This document shows positions 16,179-47,086 of a DNA stretch of 59,878 bases, one piece after another (within the stretch, counting starts at the first letter, position 1; every line of letters begins with the position of its first letter). The notes beneath the pieces were generated by a model. It ran no database searches and was not told where the DNA came from. It saw nothing but the letters and a program-made list of their open reading frames with translations. Both the position numbers and the translations under genes were made by a program. The DNA is from Acidobacteriota bacterium (GTDB lineage Bacteria; Acidobacteriota; Terriglobia; UBA7540), in assembly GCA_004298155.1 (NCBI GenBank), contig SCRD01000009.1, forward strand, positions 1 through 59,878, in the 5' to 3' direction.

Positions 16179-16203
16179 GCGTCAGCACGGACATCGCTGA
16201 CGC
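16179..16203 (+). terminator. Hairpin between iclR-type gene and sigma-factor operon
   Basis: GCGTCAGC (16179-16186) and GCTGACGC (16196-16203) form a perfect 8-bp stem with a 9-base loop, 60 bases after the IclR stop. There is no T-run, so it may be a terminator of another kind or an operator before the sigma-factor gene. Confidence 0.35.
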
Positions 16204-16307
16204 AACCCATTGGTTCTGGTACAATTCCCACATTCAAAGTGTGGTCAAGGTAGGCGGTCGAAAACCTCACCTGCGGCCTGGCCATTGTCGGTCCCGGGAG
16301 AAATCCG

Positions 16308-16862
16308 TTGGACTCGGACTTGGAGCTGGTCAAACGCTGTCTCAAGGGAGAAGATGCGGCCTGGGAGGCGCTGCTACGGACCCATACCCATAAGATTTAC
16401 AATCTGTGTTACCGTTTCACCGGCCGTTCTGAGGACGCCGAAGACCTTACCCAGGAAGTTTTTATCAAAGTCTTTCGCACCCTCAATAGTTATGATCCGC
16501 TTCAGGCGAAATTTGTCACATGGGTTAATCGAATCGCACGGAACCACCTGGTGGACCACTATCGCCGGACACGGGGCGATCGTGTGACCTCGACACTCGA
16601 CGACCAGATGCCCATCGCCGACGGTTCCCCCCACAGGGACCCTGCGAGCAGCCTGGAATCACGGGAACGCAAGGAAAAGCTCCAGGCGGGACTTAGCAAG
16701 CTTTCGCCTGACCTGCGCGAAGCCGTTATCCTGCGAGACCTGCAGGATCTGGACTATGCCGAAATTGCGCAAGTCCTTGAAGTACCTGAAGGAACGGTAA
16801 AGTCTCGCATCAACCGCGGACGATTGGAACTAGCAAAGGCTTTAAAACGTATGGATAAGTGA
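16308..16862 (+). CDS. ECF-type RNA polymerase sigma factor (envelope-stress operon)
   Basis: A 184-residue ECF sigma factor. Region 2 is visible as YNLCYRFTGRSEDAEDLTQE and FVTWVNRIARNHLVDHYRR; region 4 as LSPDLREAVILRDLQDLDYA and VPEGTVKSRINRGR, the DNA-binding helix for the -35 box. It starts at TTG 16308, with GGGAG (16296-16300) 7 bases ahead. It is the first gene of a six-gene same-strand run (16308-20373) whose second gene is its probable membrane anti-sigma factor. It therefore probably activates this operon in response to envelope signals. Confidence 0.92.
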   Translation: MDSDLELVKRCLKGEDAAWEALLRTHTHKIYNLCYRFTGRSEDAEDLTQEVFIKVFRTLNSYDPLQAKFVTWVNRIARNHLVDHYRRTRGDRVTSTLDDQMPIADGSPHRDPASSLESRERKEKLQAGLSKLSPDLREAVILRDLQDLDYAEIAQVLEVPEGTVKSRINRGRLELAKALKRMDK

Positions 16863-16878
16863 AGGCTGAAGAGGCAAG

Positions 16879-17544
16879 ATGATGACACATCTGGAGCTCG
16901 AAAACCTGGCAAGTGATTACCTGGATGGGCACCTGGATATAGCCCGAAAGGCCGAGGTCGAGGAGCATCTGGCTGGTTGCAACTCTTGCCGGGGGGTCCT
17001 GTCCGATGTCCGTCTGGCCATTCAGGCTTGCCGGTCGGCCGGAGAAGTGACGCCGCCCCCGTGGCTTGTGTCCAGGATCAGGTTCGCAACCGTGGGTGAA
17101 AAGCGCACGGGTATCGTGGAACAGGTTACCGCGCTGCTCCAAACTATTCGGCAACCTCGCGTTGCGTATGCTACGGCCATGGCCCTTTTTTCCCTTTCGC
17201 TGATTATCAACGTCGCAGGCCTCAATCTCCGAAGCCTTAATATGGAGGACTTGAACCCTGCGACCTGGGTCTACCGTGCTAACCGGGCGGGACATATGCT
17301 TTACGCGCGGGCCGAAAAATTCTATGACGACCTGCGAATCGTTTATGAAATTGAATCCCGCTTCCGAAACGCTCAATCCGAAACCGACAACCAGGAGAAG
17401 CAGACCAGAAAGCCCGGTCCTTCGCAGGGGCGACCGTCAAGCACTGCGGAGCTAGGAGGCGAGCAAATGGCCTCGACGCATGCCAACGCTACCGGGCAAT
17501 ATGCTCAACTCGAGCCAGGAGCACAAATCCATGAAATGCGCTAA
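16879..17544 (+). CDS. Zinc-finger anti-sigma factor, single membrane span
   Basis: A 221-residue protein, 16 bases after the sigma gene. The N-terminus has a zf-HC2 anti-sigma domain with EEHLAGCNSCRGVL (His-x3-Cys-x2-Cys). A hydrophobic segment (VAYATAMALFSLSLIINVAG, about residues 95-114) would span the membrane, leaving a C-terminal charged tail. In this family the cytoplasmic zinc finger holds the sigma factor until a membrane signal releases it. The stop overlaps the next gene by 14 bases. Tail sequence after the membrane segment is not recognised. Confidence 0.85.
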   Translation: MMTHLELENLASDYLDGHLDIARKAEVEEHLAGCNSCRGVLSDVRLAIQACRSAGEVTPPPWLVSRIRFATVGEKRTGIVEQVTALLQTIRQPRVAYATAMALFSLSLIINVAGLNLRSLNMEDLNPATWVYRANRAGHMLYARAEKFYDDLRIVYEIESRFRNAQSETDNQEKQTRKPGPSQGRPSSTAELGGEQMASTHANATGQYAQLEPGAQIHEMR

Positions 17545-18202
17545 CCACCCCCTCAACGATTCCGTCGCTTATTGCGCAAACTGCGGCAGACCGCTTTGCG
17601 AAACCTGTCGGCGCGAAGTAAAAGGAACGTCCTATTGTGAGCCCTGTCTGGCTTTGCGGCTCCAGTCGCCTCTATGGAACATCGGCGGACAACTCGGGGC
17701 TGCTTCAAGTCCCGGTGTTGCCCTCGCTCTCGGTTTCATTCCAGGCGTCGGAGCTATTTATAACGGACAGATCGTAAAAGCTATGGTGCAGGTTTTGCTG
17801 TTCGGTTCGCTCATCGCTCTCGTCCACCGCGTGGGCGGTCCCCTGGGACCAATTTTCGGGCTGGTGGCTTTTGCTTTTTATTTCTATATGGTGATTGATT
17901 CTTACCAAACCGCGAAGGCTAGGCACCTTGGCCAGCCCACACCGGAATGGTTCGGCCTGAACGACTTGAAGTTGGACGCGCCGTTTGGGGCGGGTTTGCT
18001 GATCGTTCTGGGTCTTCTTTTTCTATTGGACAATTTCGGCATTCCGATTTTTTCTCAGATCGGAAAGTTCTGGCCTGTGCTCCTGATCGTGCTTGGTCTT
18101 GGCCTGCTTCAGAAACGCCTGGCGCACCATGATACCGTCGTGCCGCATAATTCAGGAACAGTTCAGACCGATCAAAAAAGCAACGAGCCTCCTGGTCAGT
18201 AA
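17531..18202 (+). CDS. B-box zinc-finger membrane protein with TM2-like and LiaF-type modules
   Basis: A 223-residue protein. Residues 1-42 form a Cys/His-rich B-box-like zinc finger (CANHPLNDSVAYCANCGRPL, CETC, YCEPC). Then come a TM2-like pair of helices with FIPGVGAIYNGQ and a C-terminal LiaI-LiaF-like module (LLFLLDNFGIPIF, FWPVLLIVLGLGLL). The same WPV-LI-G module returns in the genes at 18626 and 18898. ATG 17531 is chosen because AGGAG (17517-17521) lies 9 bases before it; it overlaps the anti-sigma stop. Function is unknown; location and sigma control suggest an inner-membrane stress protein. Confidence 0.8.
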   Translation: MKCANHPLNDSVAYCANCGRPLCETCRREVKGTSYCEPCLALRLQSPLWNIGGQLGAASSPGVALALGFIPGVGAIYNGQIVKAMVQVLLFGSLIALVHRVGGPLGPIFGLVAFAFYFYMVIDSYQTAKARHLGQPTPEWFGLNDLKLDAPFGAGLLIVLGLLFLLDNFGIPIFSQIGKFWPVLLIVLGLGLLQKRLAHHDTVVPHNSGTVQTDQKSNEPPGQ

Positions 18203-18300
18203 AGGTTATTGGAACTCTGGGAGGAAGGTAACAATCCAAGCCAAGAAGACCAATGCAAAACCCAGGTTGGAAGAGAGCGAAAGCGAGGAAGGACGCAAAA

Positions 18301-18522
18301 ATGGAGAATCTTCCCGGATTGGTTGCTGTTCTGCTGCCTGTTTCAGTGGTCCTCATGCCAATTGCGATCTTGTGGATTGTTTTCTGGTTCAAGGCGCGCC
18401 AACGTGAAATGGAATTACAGGAAAATCTTCGGTTGCGGGAATTCGAACATCTTCAACGGTTGAAGGAATTGGAGCTTGAAATCGAGAAAACGAGAGCTCG
18501 CGATCCTGGAAAGCCGGCTTGA
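18301..18522 (+). CDS. Small PspB-like membrane/coiled-coil protein
   Basis: A 73-residue protein: one N-terminal membrane helix (LVAVLLPVSVVLMPIAILWI, about residues 7-26), then a charged coiled coil (LQENLRLREFEHLQRLKELE). Size and layout match PspB of the phage-shock system, but sequence identity cannot be judged by eye. AGGAAGGA (18286-18293) is 7 bases before ATG 18301, which excludes the upstream in-frame ATG. It sits between two LiaF-module genes of the sigma-controlled operon. Confidence 0.72.
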   Translation: MENLPGLVAVLLPVSVVLMPIAILWIVFWFKARQREMELQENLRLREFEHLQRLKELELEIEKTRARDPGKPA

Positions 18523-18625
18523 ACATTCGCAGGCCTGGGGGAATGCATGGACGTCATCTCAGCCCGGCGGCTGAAGGTGAAATCAGCCGGAAGGCATCTA
18601 TTCCAATTAGGCAAGGTGACTCTTA

Positions 18626-18901
18626 ATGACAACCAACTTCAATCCTGCACAAGGCCGTGACGAACTCCGACGCTCACGCCGCACTCATAGAATCGGGCTG
18701 ACGGGTCCGATTCTGCTGGTTGCTTTAGGGGTTTTGTTCCTGGTGGGCCAATTTGTTCCGCATTGGGGGGTGGATAAAACGTGGCCGGTGATTCTAATTG
18801 TTATTGGCTTTACCAGATTGCTTGAGTCCGTGCGGACAGGAAGGTCAGCACCATCCAGTCAGCAGCTTCCACCACTTCCTGAAACGGAGGATCGAGCATG
18901 A
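18626..18901 (+). CDS. LiaI/LiaF-type two-helix membrane protein
   Basis: A 91-residue protein made almost entirely of one LiaI-LiaF-like membrane module: TGPILLVALGVLFLVGQFV, a short loop, then TWPVILIVIGFTRLLES. The tail is Pro/Ser-rich. AAGGTGAC precedes the ATG. Its stop overlaps the next start as ATGA (18898-18901), so the two products are made together. In Firmicutes the module belongs to the LiaFSR cell-envelope stress response; here no LiaSR pair is seen, and the ECF sigma seems to take that place. Confidence 0.78.
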   Translation: MTTNFNPAQGRDELRRSRRTHRIGLTGPILLVALGVLFLVGQFVPHWGVDKTWPVILIVIGFTRLLESVRTGRSAPSSQQLPPLPETEDRA

Positions 18902-20373
18902 GCATTTACCGTCACCATCGTGGGTCCATATTTTGGGCACTGACCCTGATCGCGATCGGCGCGATCTTTCTGTACCAGAATTTCAATCCTATCGTTCGCC
19001 CCTGGCACCTGATTGCAAAGTACTGGCCTGTTCTGATCATTTTCTGGGGACTGTCCAAACTGATTGATTACTTTCACGCCAGAAACCACCCCGAGGCACA
19101 ACCGCATTCGCTGCTTTCCGCCGGCGAGATTGTCCTGCTGATCGTTGTCCTCATCATTGGGACAGCCCTGTCAAAGGCGCTTCTGCGACCCTGGGGCGGC
19201 TGGCCTTCTGTGATGGGCATGAACGACCAGCAGTTTGCCGAGATATTTTTCAATTCCTACACCTTCACGCAGAGAGTGTCTCAGGACGTCGAAGGCAGCG
19301 CGCACCTGCTAGTGGTAAACCGCAGAGGTAACGTCGAAATTCGCGGTGCAGACCAGAAGAGCATAGGGGCGGTCATCCAGGAGACCGTGTGGGCTGAAAA
19401 TGAATCTGCTGCCAGAAAAATTGCCGACCGCTTGCAGTTTCAAATCGCCCAAAACGGCGGGCAGTACGAACTGACCTCCAACCTGGATTCCATTCTTTCC
19501 AGCGGACGCACCGTACGGCTGGATATGGCCATCCGTGTGCCTCAATCCACCACATCGGATGTTGCGGTTGACGACGGTGATGTAACCGTCAGAGGCCTGA
19601 AGGGCAACCAGACGCTTACCTCGCGCCGTGGAGATGTGCAAGCCAATGACATTGACGGCATCTTGCGAATTCACGAGTCGCGTGGGACAACTTCGGCCTC
19701 AAAGATCGACGGCAGCGTGGAAATTGAGGGTAGGGGGGAAGATGTCGGAGTTCGGGATGTGACAGGATCAGTGACGGTGGAGGGAAACTTCTCCGGCGCA
19801 ACACGCTTCGAGGCTGTCGCCCGGACGCTGCGCTACAATTCTTCCCGCACAAACCTGATGACGCAAAACCTTACCGGCAATCTCACGATGGATATGAGCA
19901 ACCTGACAGCCAATGGCGTTGGGGGACCTTTTGAGCTTTCAACACGAGACAAGGACATCCTGCTCGAAAACTTCAAGTTTAACGTGAAGATCGTCAACAG
20001 CAATGGAGCCGTCCACCTCCAGACAACGACCCCGCCTACACATCCGATTGACGTCGACCTCAAGAAGGGTGACATCACATTGTCACTGCCAGTCTCCTCA
20101 AATTTCCAGGTGGATGCCGTTTCCCACAACGGCGGGGTCAGCTGCGACTTCCCTGGGCTGAAGGTTTCAAAGGAACCACCCATGCCCGCCATCGAGGGGA
20201 CATACGGGAGTAACGGTCCCATGATCCGGCTTTCGTCAACCTACGGAGACATTCATCTTCTCCGCCTACAGACACCGCCACCGCCAGCAGCCCCTTCAAC
20301 TGCCAGCCTGACCGAAAATCGGCCCCGGCGGGAAGGCGCGCCGGGGTGCACCATTCGCCTTGCGGCTCGTTAG
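18898..20373 (+). CDS. LiaF-type membrane module fused to DUF4097 beta-helix-like domain
   Basis: A 491-residue protein. Residues 5-55 form a LiaI-LiaF-like module (ALTLIAIGAIFLYQNF, YWPVLIIFWGLSKLI). A further membrane helix follows (IVLLIVVLIIGTALSKALL). Residues ~130-460 are a repetitive extracytoplasmic domain with short paired strands (VNRRGNVEIRGADQ, VDDGDVTVRGLKGN, SRRGDVQANDIDG, EGRGEDVGVRDVTG), typical of DUF4097/putative adhesin domains. This is the LiaF-like architecture: membrane sensor plus beta-rich outer domain. It ends the sigma-factor operon and faces aroA across 40 bases. Confidence 0.85.
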   Translation: MSIYRHHRGSIFWALTLIAIGAIFLYQNFNPIVRPWHLIAKYWPVLIIFWGLSKLIDYFHARNHPEAQPHSLLSAGEIVLLIVVLIIGTALSKALLRPWGGWPSVMGMNDQQFAEIFFNSYTFTQRVSQDVEGSAHLLVVNRRGNVEIRGADQKSIGAVIQETVWAENESAARKIADRLQFQIAQNGGQYELTSNLDSILSSGRTVRLDMAIRVPQSTTSDVAVDDGDVTVRGLKGNQTLTSRRGDVQANDIDGILRIHESRGTTSASKIDGSVEIEGRGEDVGVRDVTGSVTVEGNFSGATRFEAVARTLRYNSSRTNLMTQNLTGNLTMDMSNLTANGVGGPFELSTRDKDILLENFKFNVKIVNSNGAVHLQTTTPPTHPIDVDLKKGDITLSLPVSSNFQVDAVSHNGGVSCDFPGLKVSKEPPMPAIEGTYGSNGPMIRLSSTYGDIHLLRLQTPPPPAAPSTASLTENRPRREGAPGCTIRLAAR

Positions 20374-45595: not shown

Positions 45596-47086
45596 ATGGA
45601 CCGGAGAACATTTGTGAAGACAGTGGCGGGCACACTGGCCGCGCCCACCGTTGGCTCGATATCTGCGCAGGCCCAGACCTCATCTGAAGGTGCAGGACCA
45701 AAAAAGCGTCCACCCAATGTCATCATCATGATCTGTGACGATCTTGGCTCAGGCGATCTCCACTGTTATGGGTCGTCGCTAAAAACTCCCAACCTGAATC
45801 GGATGGCATCAGAAGGAGTTCGCTTTACCCGATTCAACACAGCCCATCCCATCTGCTCGGCTTCACGGGCCGCGCTCCTTACTGGAAGATACGCCAGTCG
45901 AAGCCACACCGCCGGCGCCTACGGACCCTCGTCGCCCGACGGCATGGACCTGGATGAAAAGACGCTGGCAGACATTCTGAAAACCTCCGGGCACAAATCC
46001 ATGTGTATTGGTAAATGGCATCTGGGTTACCCGCCGCAGTACCTGCCCACCAGCAGGGGGTTTGATTCGTTCTTCGGTGTGCCGTGGAGCGTGGACATGA
46101 ATCCATTTCCCCTGCTCAGGGACACAACCGTGATCGAGGAGCTTCCCGACCGCCAAATACTTACCCCCCGTTACACCGAGCAGGCTGTAAAGTTTATTGA
46201 TTCCTCGGCGGACGGCCCATTCTTTTTATACGTTGCCTATTCGTACCCGCACGATCCGCCAAGGTCGTCTCCGCGCTTCCGCGGTCATTCCGGGCTCGGC
46301 CATCAGGCGGATGCAATCGAAGAAATCGATTGGAGCGTCGGAGAAATTCTGGCGGCGGTCCATCGCAACGGGCTGGACCAGGATACTCTGATCTTCTTCA
46401 CAAGCGACCACGGCCCATGGTTCCAGGGGTGCCCCGGACCTCGGCGCGGGCGAAAAGCCACCACCTTCGAGGGTGGCACACGCATTCCTTTTATCGCGCG
46501 ATGGGCCGGAACGGTCCCGGCAGGCAGAGTCATCGATGAATGGGGTTCCAACCTGGATGTGGTACCTACAGTCGCGTCGTTTTGTGGAGCTGAACTACCT
46601 CCAAATCCTCTCGATGGCGTAGATCTCTCCAAACTCCTCAGCGGCGAGTGCGCGCATATTAATAGGGGTACTATCCTCTACTTTGCGGTTTCACACAGCC
46701 AGGAAGTGCTGGAGTGCGCAAGAAAGGGCAACTGGAAACTCCGCATCGCTCAAGGGAACGGAGAAATTTACATCAACGACTGGCTCGGCGGATCATGTGC
46801 GCCGAAGAAGCATTTGATGCTTCCGCAGCCTGAACTCTACAACCTGGAACTGGACCCTGCTGAAAGCTATGACGCAGCGATTGACCATCCCGATAAGGTC
46901 AAAGAAATCCAGCAGGACATCGACGCCCTGGTCCCAACATTCCCCGAAAATGTTCAGAAGGCCTACGCGGAATTGAAGGCCAATCCAGGAAGCTCCATGA
47001 CGCCCCCAGGTGCAGCCACGCGTCCTGGCAATCTGGTTGCTCCGCAATGGATCTGGGTCCCCGATTCGCGCCGCGTTAAGAGCTGA
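45596..47086 (+). CDS. Tat-exported arylsulfatase
   Basis: A 496-residue sulfatase. The N-terminus MDRRTFVKTVAGTLAAPTVG is a Tat signal (RRTFVK). The metal-binding NVIIMICDDLGSGDLHCYG holds Asp48-Asp49; active-site ICSASRAALLTGR holds Cys87 for oxidation to formylglycine (C-x-A-x-R). LIFFTSDHGPW and LDPAES complete the family features. AAGGAG (45585-45590) is 5 bases before ATG 45596, excluding the GTG at 45590. It probably removes sulfate from glycans in the periplasm; a formylglycine-generating enzyme is not in the window. Confidence 0.93.
   Translation: MDRRTFVKTVAGTLAAPTVGSISAQAQTSSEGAGPKKRPPNVIIMICDDLGSGDLHCYGSSLKTPNLNRMASEGVRFTRFNTAHPICSASRAALLTGRYASRSHTAGAYGPSSPDGMDLDEKTLADILKTSGHKSMCIGKWHLGYPPQYLPTSRGFDSFFGVPWSVDMNPFPLLRDTTVIEELPDRQILTPRYTEQAVKFIDSSADGPFFLYVAYSYPHDPPRSSPRFRGHSGLGHQADAIEEIDWSVGEILAAVHRNGLDQDTLIFFTSDHGPWFQGCPGPRRGRKATTFEGGTRIPFIARWAGTVPAGRVIDEWGSNLDVVPTVASFCGAELPPNPLDGVDLSKLLSGECAHINRGTILYFAVSHSQEVLECARKGNWKLRIAQGNGEIYINDWLGGSCAPKKHLMLPQPELYNLELDPAESYDAAIDHPDKVKEIQQDIDALVPTFPENVQKAYAELKANPGSSMTPPGAATRPGNLVAPQWIWVPDSRRVKS

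Follow-up and report, generated by a model that had tools for sequence, protein, structure and literature searches.

In the Gram-positive bacterium Bacillus subtilis the extracytoplasmic function (ECF) sigma factor sigma-W responds to membrane-active compounds; its anti-sigma factor RsiW is cut by proteases (regulated intramembrane proteolysis), and sigma-W and its membrane genes lie at separate loci. Sigma-W is described as controlling the yvlABCD operon, in which YvlB has a DUF4097 (Toastrack) domain and YvlC is a PspC homologue. Sigma-W/RsiW is the nearest characterised case to the locus treated here, a six-gene operon on contig SCRD01000009.1 of an Acidobacteriota genome (assembly GCA_004298155.1; 5.2 Mb, 97.6% complete); the whole contig of 59,878 bases is the window of this analysis. 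The two systems share an ECF sigma factor, an RsiW-type anti-sigma factor and a DUF4097 protein, with PspC as a candidate target here, but the acidobacterial operon unites the sigma gene with the membrane genes and has LiaF-type modules, a B-box zinc finger, and an ECF-type motif inside the sigma gene. We propose that it is probably an envelope-stress ECF system with an RsiW-like anti-sigma factor and a LiaF/Toastrack/PspC membrane arm, whose predicted promoter was relocated into the sigma gene in the window's family.

Several other described systems resemble parts of this operon. LiaFSR/LiaIH of Bacillota likewise places a Toastrack protein and LiaI-LiaF transmembrane (TM) modules next to a regulator, but there is no LiaR or LiaS among the annotated neighbours here and the regulator is a sigma/anti-sigma pair; a first-pass annotation of the locus had suggested sigma control in place of LiaRS, and an ECF-controlled LiaF/Toastrack system is indeed supported. 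Proteobacterial Psp (PspABC) is brought to mind by the small PspB-like protein and by a PspC gene sharing the operon's motif, but no PspA was found in the window's genome and the PspB-like protein falls short of the PspB profile. In the abstract-level account of sigH-rshA of Corynebacterium glutamicum (PMC3489674), sigma is transcribed from housekeeping promoters and the anti-sigma gene also from a promoter read by SigH, which is the wiring we propose for the window's family; that system differs in answering oxidative and heat stress, and its abstract names no membrane-protein arm. Toastrack contexts with an operonically linked sigma factor were foreseen by Ravi et al. (2024; PMC11237479), although the main text of that study uses neither 'Acidobacteria' nor 'ECF', and its relevant passages give no promoter, anti-sigma anatomy or regulon. 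In titles and opening lines of abstracts (not supplements or subscription journals) we found no account of the acidobacterial operon, its promoter or a PspC link. The first-pass annotation knew of no named system with exactly this gene set; the kind of system was partly foreseen, by Ravi et al. and in sigma-W/yvl as described. What appears new is the predicted ECF promoter motif upstream of sigma, its position within sigma in the window's family, and its occurrence before PspC.

The operon and its predicted promoters comprise the following features.

16214..16225, plus strand: predicted sigma-70-type extended -10 promoter of the sigma gene, TTCTGGTACAAT (TGNTANRAT counts, profile, sequence).
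16308..16862, plus strand: ECF sigma factor, 184 amino acids, TTG start (Pfam Sigma70_r2 and r4_2, NCBIfam sigma70-ECF, homologue alignment).
16826..16852, plus strand: predicted ECF promoter within the 3' end of the sigma gene (GGAAC at 16826-16830, CGT at 16848-16850).
16879..17544, plus strand: membrane anti-sigma factor, with zf-HC2 domain, one predicted TM helix, conserved outside segment and variable tail.
17531..18202, plus strand: B-box zinc-finger protein; of its roughly four TM helices, the final pair forms a LiaI-LiaF module.
18301..18522, plus strand: PspB-like small protein, 73 amino acids, one TM helix and a charged helix.
18626..18901, plus strand: LiaI-like two-TM protein, 91 amino acids (Pfam LiaI-LiaF-like_TM1).
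18898..20373, plus strand: LiaF-TM and Toastrack (DUF4097) protein, 491 amino acids (Pfam, AlphaFold2, Foldseek).

These coordinates agree with the first-pass annotation, which had described six same-strand genes with overlapping or short junctions at 16308-20373; the junctions, in gene order, are 16 nt, a 14-nt overlap, 98 nt, 103 nt and a 4-nt overlap. Neither the extended -10 nor the ECF-type motif within sigma figured in the first-pass annotation. The 14-nt overlap assumes that the B-box gene starts at ATG 17531, as in relatives, rather than at the upstream ATG 17480, and the PspB-like start was refined to 18301, matching two relatives (L042 and L043). The operon is flanked by an IclR regulator gene and by aroA on the opposite strand; the annotated neighbours are dapA-like, IclR, sigma, anti-sigma and aroA.

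Anchored at the sigma start, the ECF-type motif GAAC-N17-CGT is found upstream of sigma in 46 of 55 distinct loci without PspB-like genes, compared with 0 or 1 occurrences at each of ten other spacings and 0 on the reverse strand at the 17-nt spacing. (A loose first version of the motif gave scattered matches, several in other families; anchoring at the sigma start revealed the pattern.) Among these 46 motifs, 34 read GAACTT, 37 end in CGTT and nine in CGTA, and 15 have the full form GGAACTT-N15-CGTT. Outside the class, 12 of 18 sigma open reading frames (ORFs) have the upstream motif, a count without a spacing control. Loci bearing PspB-like genes, which among the loci examined are confined to the window's family (two of the records, L120 and L122, are titled gp13), differ: none of 28 has the upstream motif, and 26 have instead an extended -10, TGNTANRAT, that is absent from the reverse strand. 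Its profile from 25 loci, tTCTGnTAcAATgCc, has no -35 box. A simple sigma-70/terminator scan placed the window's extended -10 (16197-16225) among two promoter-like sites, where shuffled sequences lead one to expect 2.3, hence no excess. This upstream scoring left out seven sigma genes without an anchor and loci with <100 nt upstream; the second sigma locus of L078 and a stray sigma of L062 were excluded from sigma counts. The L102-L181 loci overlap in part with L042-L068 in species, and identical stretches were removed before motif, codon and tree counts. Directly after the -10 of the window's sigma promoter lies an inverted repeat, CCACA...TGTGG (16227-16244), imperfectly present in the same-genus relatives L042 and L043 and a possible operator for some regulator.

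In the window's family GAAC-N17-CGT occurs instead in the last codons of sigma, in all 31 distinct sigma genes scored, its GAAC starting 32-74 nt before the anti-sigma ORF start (52 nt in the window). These counts, and the codon counts below, exclude sigma genes without an N-R/S-G-R match, such as those of L084 and L085, which nevertheless show the internal motif. The spacing preference holds across whole operons (L042-L086), with 44 sites at 17 nt versus 5-11 at other spacings in family operons (window included), and 26 versus 2-8 in non-family operons. This placement would allow the internal motif to drive the anti-sigma and membrane genes, and suggests two promoters in the family, one predicted before sigma and one inside it for the remaining genes. 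When 80 rows were placed on a tree that leaves out the sigma C-terminus, the window's family came together as one clade of 26 rows (SH-aLRT support 100); the internal motif is in all 26 and the upstream motif in none of the 25 scored. A separate clade of six rows, plus L080, has both motifs. Given this distribution, loss of the upstream motif goes with a single lineage, and the internal motif has at least two origins; since upstream loss and internal gain coincide with the same clade, they count as one event, and an independent-pairs test of the two motifs has too few pairs to carry meaning.

A motif within a gene could instead reflect a constraint on coding or translation, either through the conserved ELxxxxxR residues or through coupling to the anti-sigma start, with no promoter at all. 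The motif does lie in a conserved protein stretch and close to the anti-sigma start, but the residues do not fix the codons. Among 100 residue-conserved degenerate codon columns of the family's sigma genes, the Arg column of the motif is the strongest synonymous-site outlier, being CGT in 31 of 31 where general use is 0.117 (G 133); the next outliers include TTG (G 58), CTT/CTA (45) and GAA (31 of 31, 42), all in the top five. Neither the Glu nor the Leu columns stand out in 59 sigma genes from elsewhere, whose Arg column is too weakly conserved to be scored. The internal spacing is moreover identical to that of the upstream promoters of sister families, and the second clade has the internal motif while keeping the upstream one. 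We therefore consider a purely coding explanation unlikely. Another candidate, relocation of the motif to the gap before the PspB-like genes, was dropped: by eye there is no fixed motif, and many relatives have an extra small ORF there. That ORF encodes a small glycine-rich membrane protein (L105:3593-3814, 73 amino acids, between the B-box and first PspB-like genes) that is absent from the window; similar ORFs were seen by eye in L110, L112, L114, L115, L118 and L122-L125, making it a further operon member in many family loci. A further GAAC-N17-CGT occurs at the end of the last PspB-like gene in L044, L052, L053, L055, L057 and L058, 74-103 nt before the LiaI-like gene, and may be a second internal promoter or a coding effect.

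The sigma-internal form of the motif leads beyond the operon. In 12 family genomes GGAACT-N16-CGTAT has 45 sites, compared with 10 for the control; the sigma operon accounts for 13 of them, and another eight immediately precede a zinc-ribbon PspC gene (G000, G001, G002, G003, G004, G005, G008 and G015), while many of the other 24 are inside long ORFs. In the window's own genome the motif is at C19:46255-46281 and the only PspC match at 46421-46594. With PspC as the starting point and the motif letters relaxed, 11 of 13 family genomes had the 17-nt spacing, and other spacings scored 0-2. Eight of the 13 had prompted the PspC idea, and three matches fall in the other five. In other families the motif is at the expected place before PspC in six of nine scored (G040, G045, G048, G053, G055, G056); in G041 it is far upstream, and G049 and G038 have none. 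L303, cut at a contig end, was excluded from this scoring, and seven of 30 genomes have no PspC match. As background, the 17-nt spacing occurs six times in 119,756 bases (the window, both strands), and other spacings 2-11 times. The window's genome has eight zf-HC2 loci; upstream of the seven outside the operon, the motif is absent from the right strand. In L008 it occurs at the match itself and in L006 on the opposite strand. The first-pass suggestion that the system monitors the inner membrane becomes likelier with a predicted promoter motif common to the operon and PspC.

Candidate targets of the motif also include HlyD-type adaptors (G008 and G015; by eye, G005 has a similar protein) and a PadR gene (G015; by eye, G018 has a similar one). 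ECF-type sites also stand shortly before an intact zinc-ribbon membrane protein at G000:C6:23237-23263 (L270) and G001:C37:4141-4167 (L280); this protein, judged by eye in G000, is a likely third target of the operon sigma.

The operon is a real, phylum-wide, sigma-controlled membrane-protein operon. The Toastrack protein was matched in 49 of 61 genomes searched, and 40 of 45 fetched Toastrack loci have sigma, anti-sigma and Toastrack on one strand; in four of the remaining five, the locus is cut by the end of a contig. Scanning a public genome collection with the alignment of the B-box protein gave 360 relatives among 426 candidates; in the best 80 of the 360, counted separately from the 45 Toastrack loci with which they overlap, sigma is present in 77, anti-sigma in 80, and a Toastrack ORF of >330 amino acids in 70. 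Eight of the ten without that ORF apparently hit the end of the retrieved sequence, and two (L152, L159) have pieces. The order conserved is sigma, anti-sigma, B-box, LiaI, Toastrack, and one to four PspB-like genes stand in tandem in relatives where the window has one. The B-box-protein profile matched 272 of 299 class genomes (270 of 296 at >=90% complete and <=5% contaminated); in a phylum-wide draw of 149 genomes it matched 92. Of 20 loci from outside the class, eight show the series sigma, anti-sigma, B-box protein, Toastrack; L237 makes a ninth, with a protein lacking the zinc finger in the B-box position. The comparison of gene order across Acidobacteriota, proposed in the first-pass annotation with a missing conserved neighbourhood as the refuting result, thus found a neighbourhood strongly conserved. 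Of the best 80 B-box records, 79 are titled Acidobacteriota or its subgroups; the exception, a metagenome-assembled genome titled Bacillota (L176), has the complete operon and groups with acidobacterial sequences, and is probably mis-binned, or else a transfer. Many class genomes, often of family f10, have two B-box-protein matches; some are pieces of one protein (G060, G065) and others may be a second copy of the system.

The proteins bear out most of the first-pass labels. The ECF sigma and zinc-finger anti-sigma assignments are confirmed by Pfam above cut-offs: sigma has regions 2 and 4 only, as in ECF factors (Sigma70_r2 70.9 bits, r4_2 63.5 bits), and the anti-sigma factor matches zf-HC2 at 36.5 bits (cut-off 22.2). 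Residues H30, C34 and C37 of its H-x3-C-x2-C zinc motif are invariant in 28 sequences, its profile matches RsiW in the PDB over residues 4-69 (E 5.6e-8), and one TM helix, read from the alignment, follows the zinc domain; it appears to be a class I zinc-type, RsiW-like factor, predicted to bind sigma. Its conservation peaks in the outside segment 131-166 (0.68, compared with 0.63 and 0.57 for the zinc-domain part, 0.63 being the value of residues 1-40), which suggests a binding partner there. Three of the four membrane proteins do have the LiaF-type module that the first pass saw: LiaI-LiaF-like_TM1 is above cut-off in the B-box (39.3 bits), 91-amino-acid (33.1) and 491-amino-acid (42.3) proteins, and LiaF-TM in two (37.2 bits in the B-box protein; 23.6 in the 91-amino-acid protein is below the cut-off of 27). 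The 491-amino-acid protein also matches DUF4097 at 54.2 bits. No other PF18917 match at E<=0.001 exists in the 5.2-Mb genome, and chance does not explain why these three modules lie together. The B-box label finds support in relatives, 20 of 21 matching zf-B_box at E<=0.01 (best 1.5e-6), and by ligands C3, H6, C15, C18, C23, C26, C36 and C39, invariant in 21 sequences, but the window's copy, at 22.9 bits, is just below the cut-off of 24.1; its structure model is confident for the zinc finger only, and against the PDB gave only weak LIM/RING matches (E>=1.1). The resemblance of the fourth protein to PspB is weak: it scores 15.5 bits against a cut-off of 25.6, and only four of 37 homologues match the profile at E<=0.1 (best 7.8e-4), so we call it PspB-like. 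An Rfam search gave no match above gathering scores, and a PHROGs search no match for two operon proteins.

The AlphaFold2 model of the Toastrack protein (mean pLDDT, the per-residue model confidence, 85.6; about 59-76 in the TM part) has three TM helices of moderate confidence (10-29, 35-63, 75-96), where Ravi et al. give four for LiaI-LiaF-TM in the passages concerned, and then a confident beta solenoid (119-457). Foldseek matches the model to 4qrk with E 6.7e-9, though TM-scores are low (0.15/0.29). We place the solenoid outside the inner membrane, because the N-terminus is positive (+2.2/-0.2) and the stretch after the third helix negative (+1.1/-2.8); the DUF4097 domain of LiaG is called extracellular in Popp et al. 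(2022).

The operon is very probably an envelope-stress system, judging by its genes and motifs, and its membrane proteins probably guard and mend the cell membrane. The sequence itself shows the gene set, its conservation, the places of the motif and the synonymous-site constraint, whereas promoter activity, the pairing of sigma with promoters, topology, protein contacts and the inducing signal are inferred, as follows. In the resting cell, the ECF sigma would be held at the inner membrane by the RsiW-like anti-sigma factor, with the zinc-binding domain of the latter in the cytoplasm, one helix in the membrane and the conserved segment beyond it. A membrane assembly would be formed by the B-box/LiaF, LiaI-like, PspB-like and Toastrack proteins. 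Its Toastrack domain would project from the outer face of the inner membrane, where the conserved segment of the anti-sigma factor also lies; because they share that side, the assembly could set the grip of the anti-sigma factor on sigma according to the state of the membrane. Membrane damage would free sigma to transcribe from promoters of the type GGAACT-N16-CGT(A/T), that is, the membrane genes of the operon and the distant zinc-ribbon PspC gene. In most of the Acidobacteriota loci examined the promoter in front of sigma would make a self-amplifying switch. In the window's family sigma would be constitutive from a housekeeping promoter, and freed sigma would raise its own inhibitor together with the membrane arm, a negative feedback.

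An alternative account takes the membrane proteins as effectors only: the anti-sigma factor would sense stress itself and be cut by proteases, and the LiaF, Toastrack, PspB-like and PspC proteins would shore up the membrane once induced. The grouping of the anti-sigma factor with RsiW by profile fits this, as does a family locus (L073, the same as L117) that keeps sigma, anti-sigma, B-box and Toastrack without a LiaI-like or PspB-like gene; but the Toastrack gene rarely leaves the operon (the 70 of the best 80 of 360 loci given above, most misses being at a stretch end), and the outside segment of the anti-sigma factor is unusually conserved, as for a binding partner. We give this account a substantial minority chance. 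The zinc-finger domains in the B-box, anti-sigma and PspC proteins could also point to a metal or redox system, in which B-box and zinc-ribbon proteins would act as sensors of zinc or of thiol state, partnered by membrane proteins for transport or storage. Pfam recognises neither a transporter nor a metal enzyme in the products of the six genes, whose remaining domains belong to membrane-stress types, and four out-of-class loci (L231, L232, L235, L237) have a protein without the zinc finger that yet keeps its place behind sigma and anti-sigma; we regard a metal or redox role as very unlikely.

Returning to a membrane assembly that governs the anti-sigma factor, with relocation of the promoter into sigma, we note a number of observations that weigh against parts of this proposal. 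The upstream motif is missing in nine of the 55 loci without PspB-like genes (two of these, L073 and L108, being of the window's family), the extended -10 also occurs in 10 of the 55, and the internal motif in nine of 56 loci outside the family. At L059, the fifth of the Toastrack loci that lack the full set, about 6.5 kb upstream of Toastrack has no partner genes. The TM2-TM3 loop, inside under the proposed topology, is not positive (+1.5/-1.8), and Ravi et al. (2024) predict an intracellular Toastrack. Systems of this type customarily have PspA as their effector, and no match to it (PF04012) was found at E<=0.001 in the window's genome. Outside the family the operon promoter is mostly CGTT (37 of 46; CGTA nine) and the PspC promoter CGTA, so that the two are not identical in every letter; and another sigma could read the PspC promoter, given the eight zf-HC2 loci of the genome and a motif of generic ECF character. 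Finally, sites of the CGTT form number 39 in 14 class genomes, where the reversed pattern has 42, and, with 14-17 nt spacers, 15 in the window's own genome, where the control has 20. As neither count shows genome-wide enrichment, a broad regulon with the CGTT form is rejected, and any regulon would be small.

Acidobacteriota rank with the most abundant bacteria of soil, and their ways of sensing envelope damage are little known. Across one class this operon is a near-universal candidate; its promoter motif can be tested, its predicted regulon is small, and through it LiaF, Toastrack and PspC proteins gain a possible partner in regulation. On balance we lean towards the view that, in one family, an envelope-stress ECF sigma lost its upstream autoregulatory promoter and has a functional copy in its own last codons, so that constitutive sigma would raise its inhibitor, the Toastrack/LiaF/PspB-like arm and a distant PspC, a Psp-like response under sigma control without PspA. 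The family would then be a natural experiment in which a feedback loop was seemingly rewired by a promoter shift into coding sequence; if the promoter did move inside the switch gene, shut-off of the response would change.

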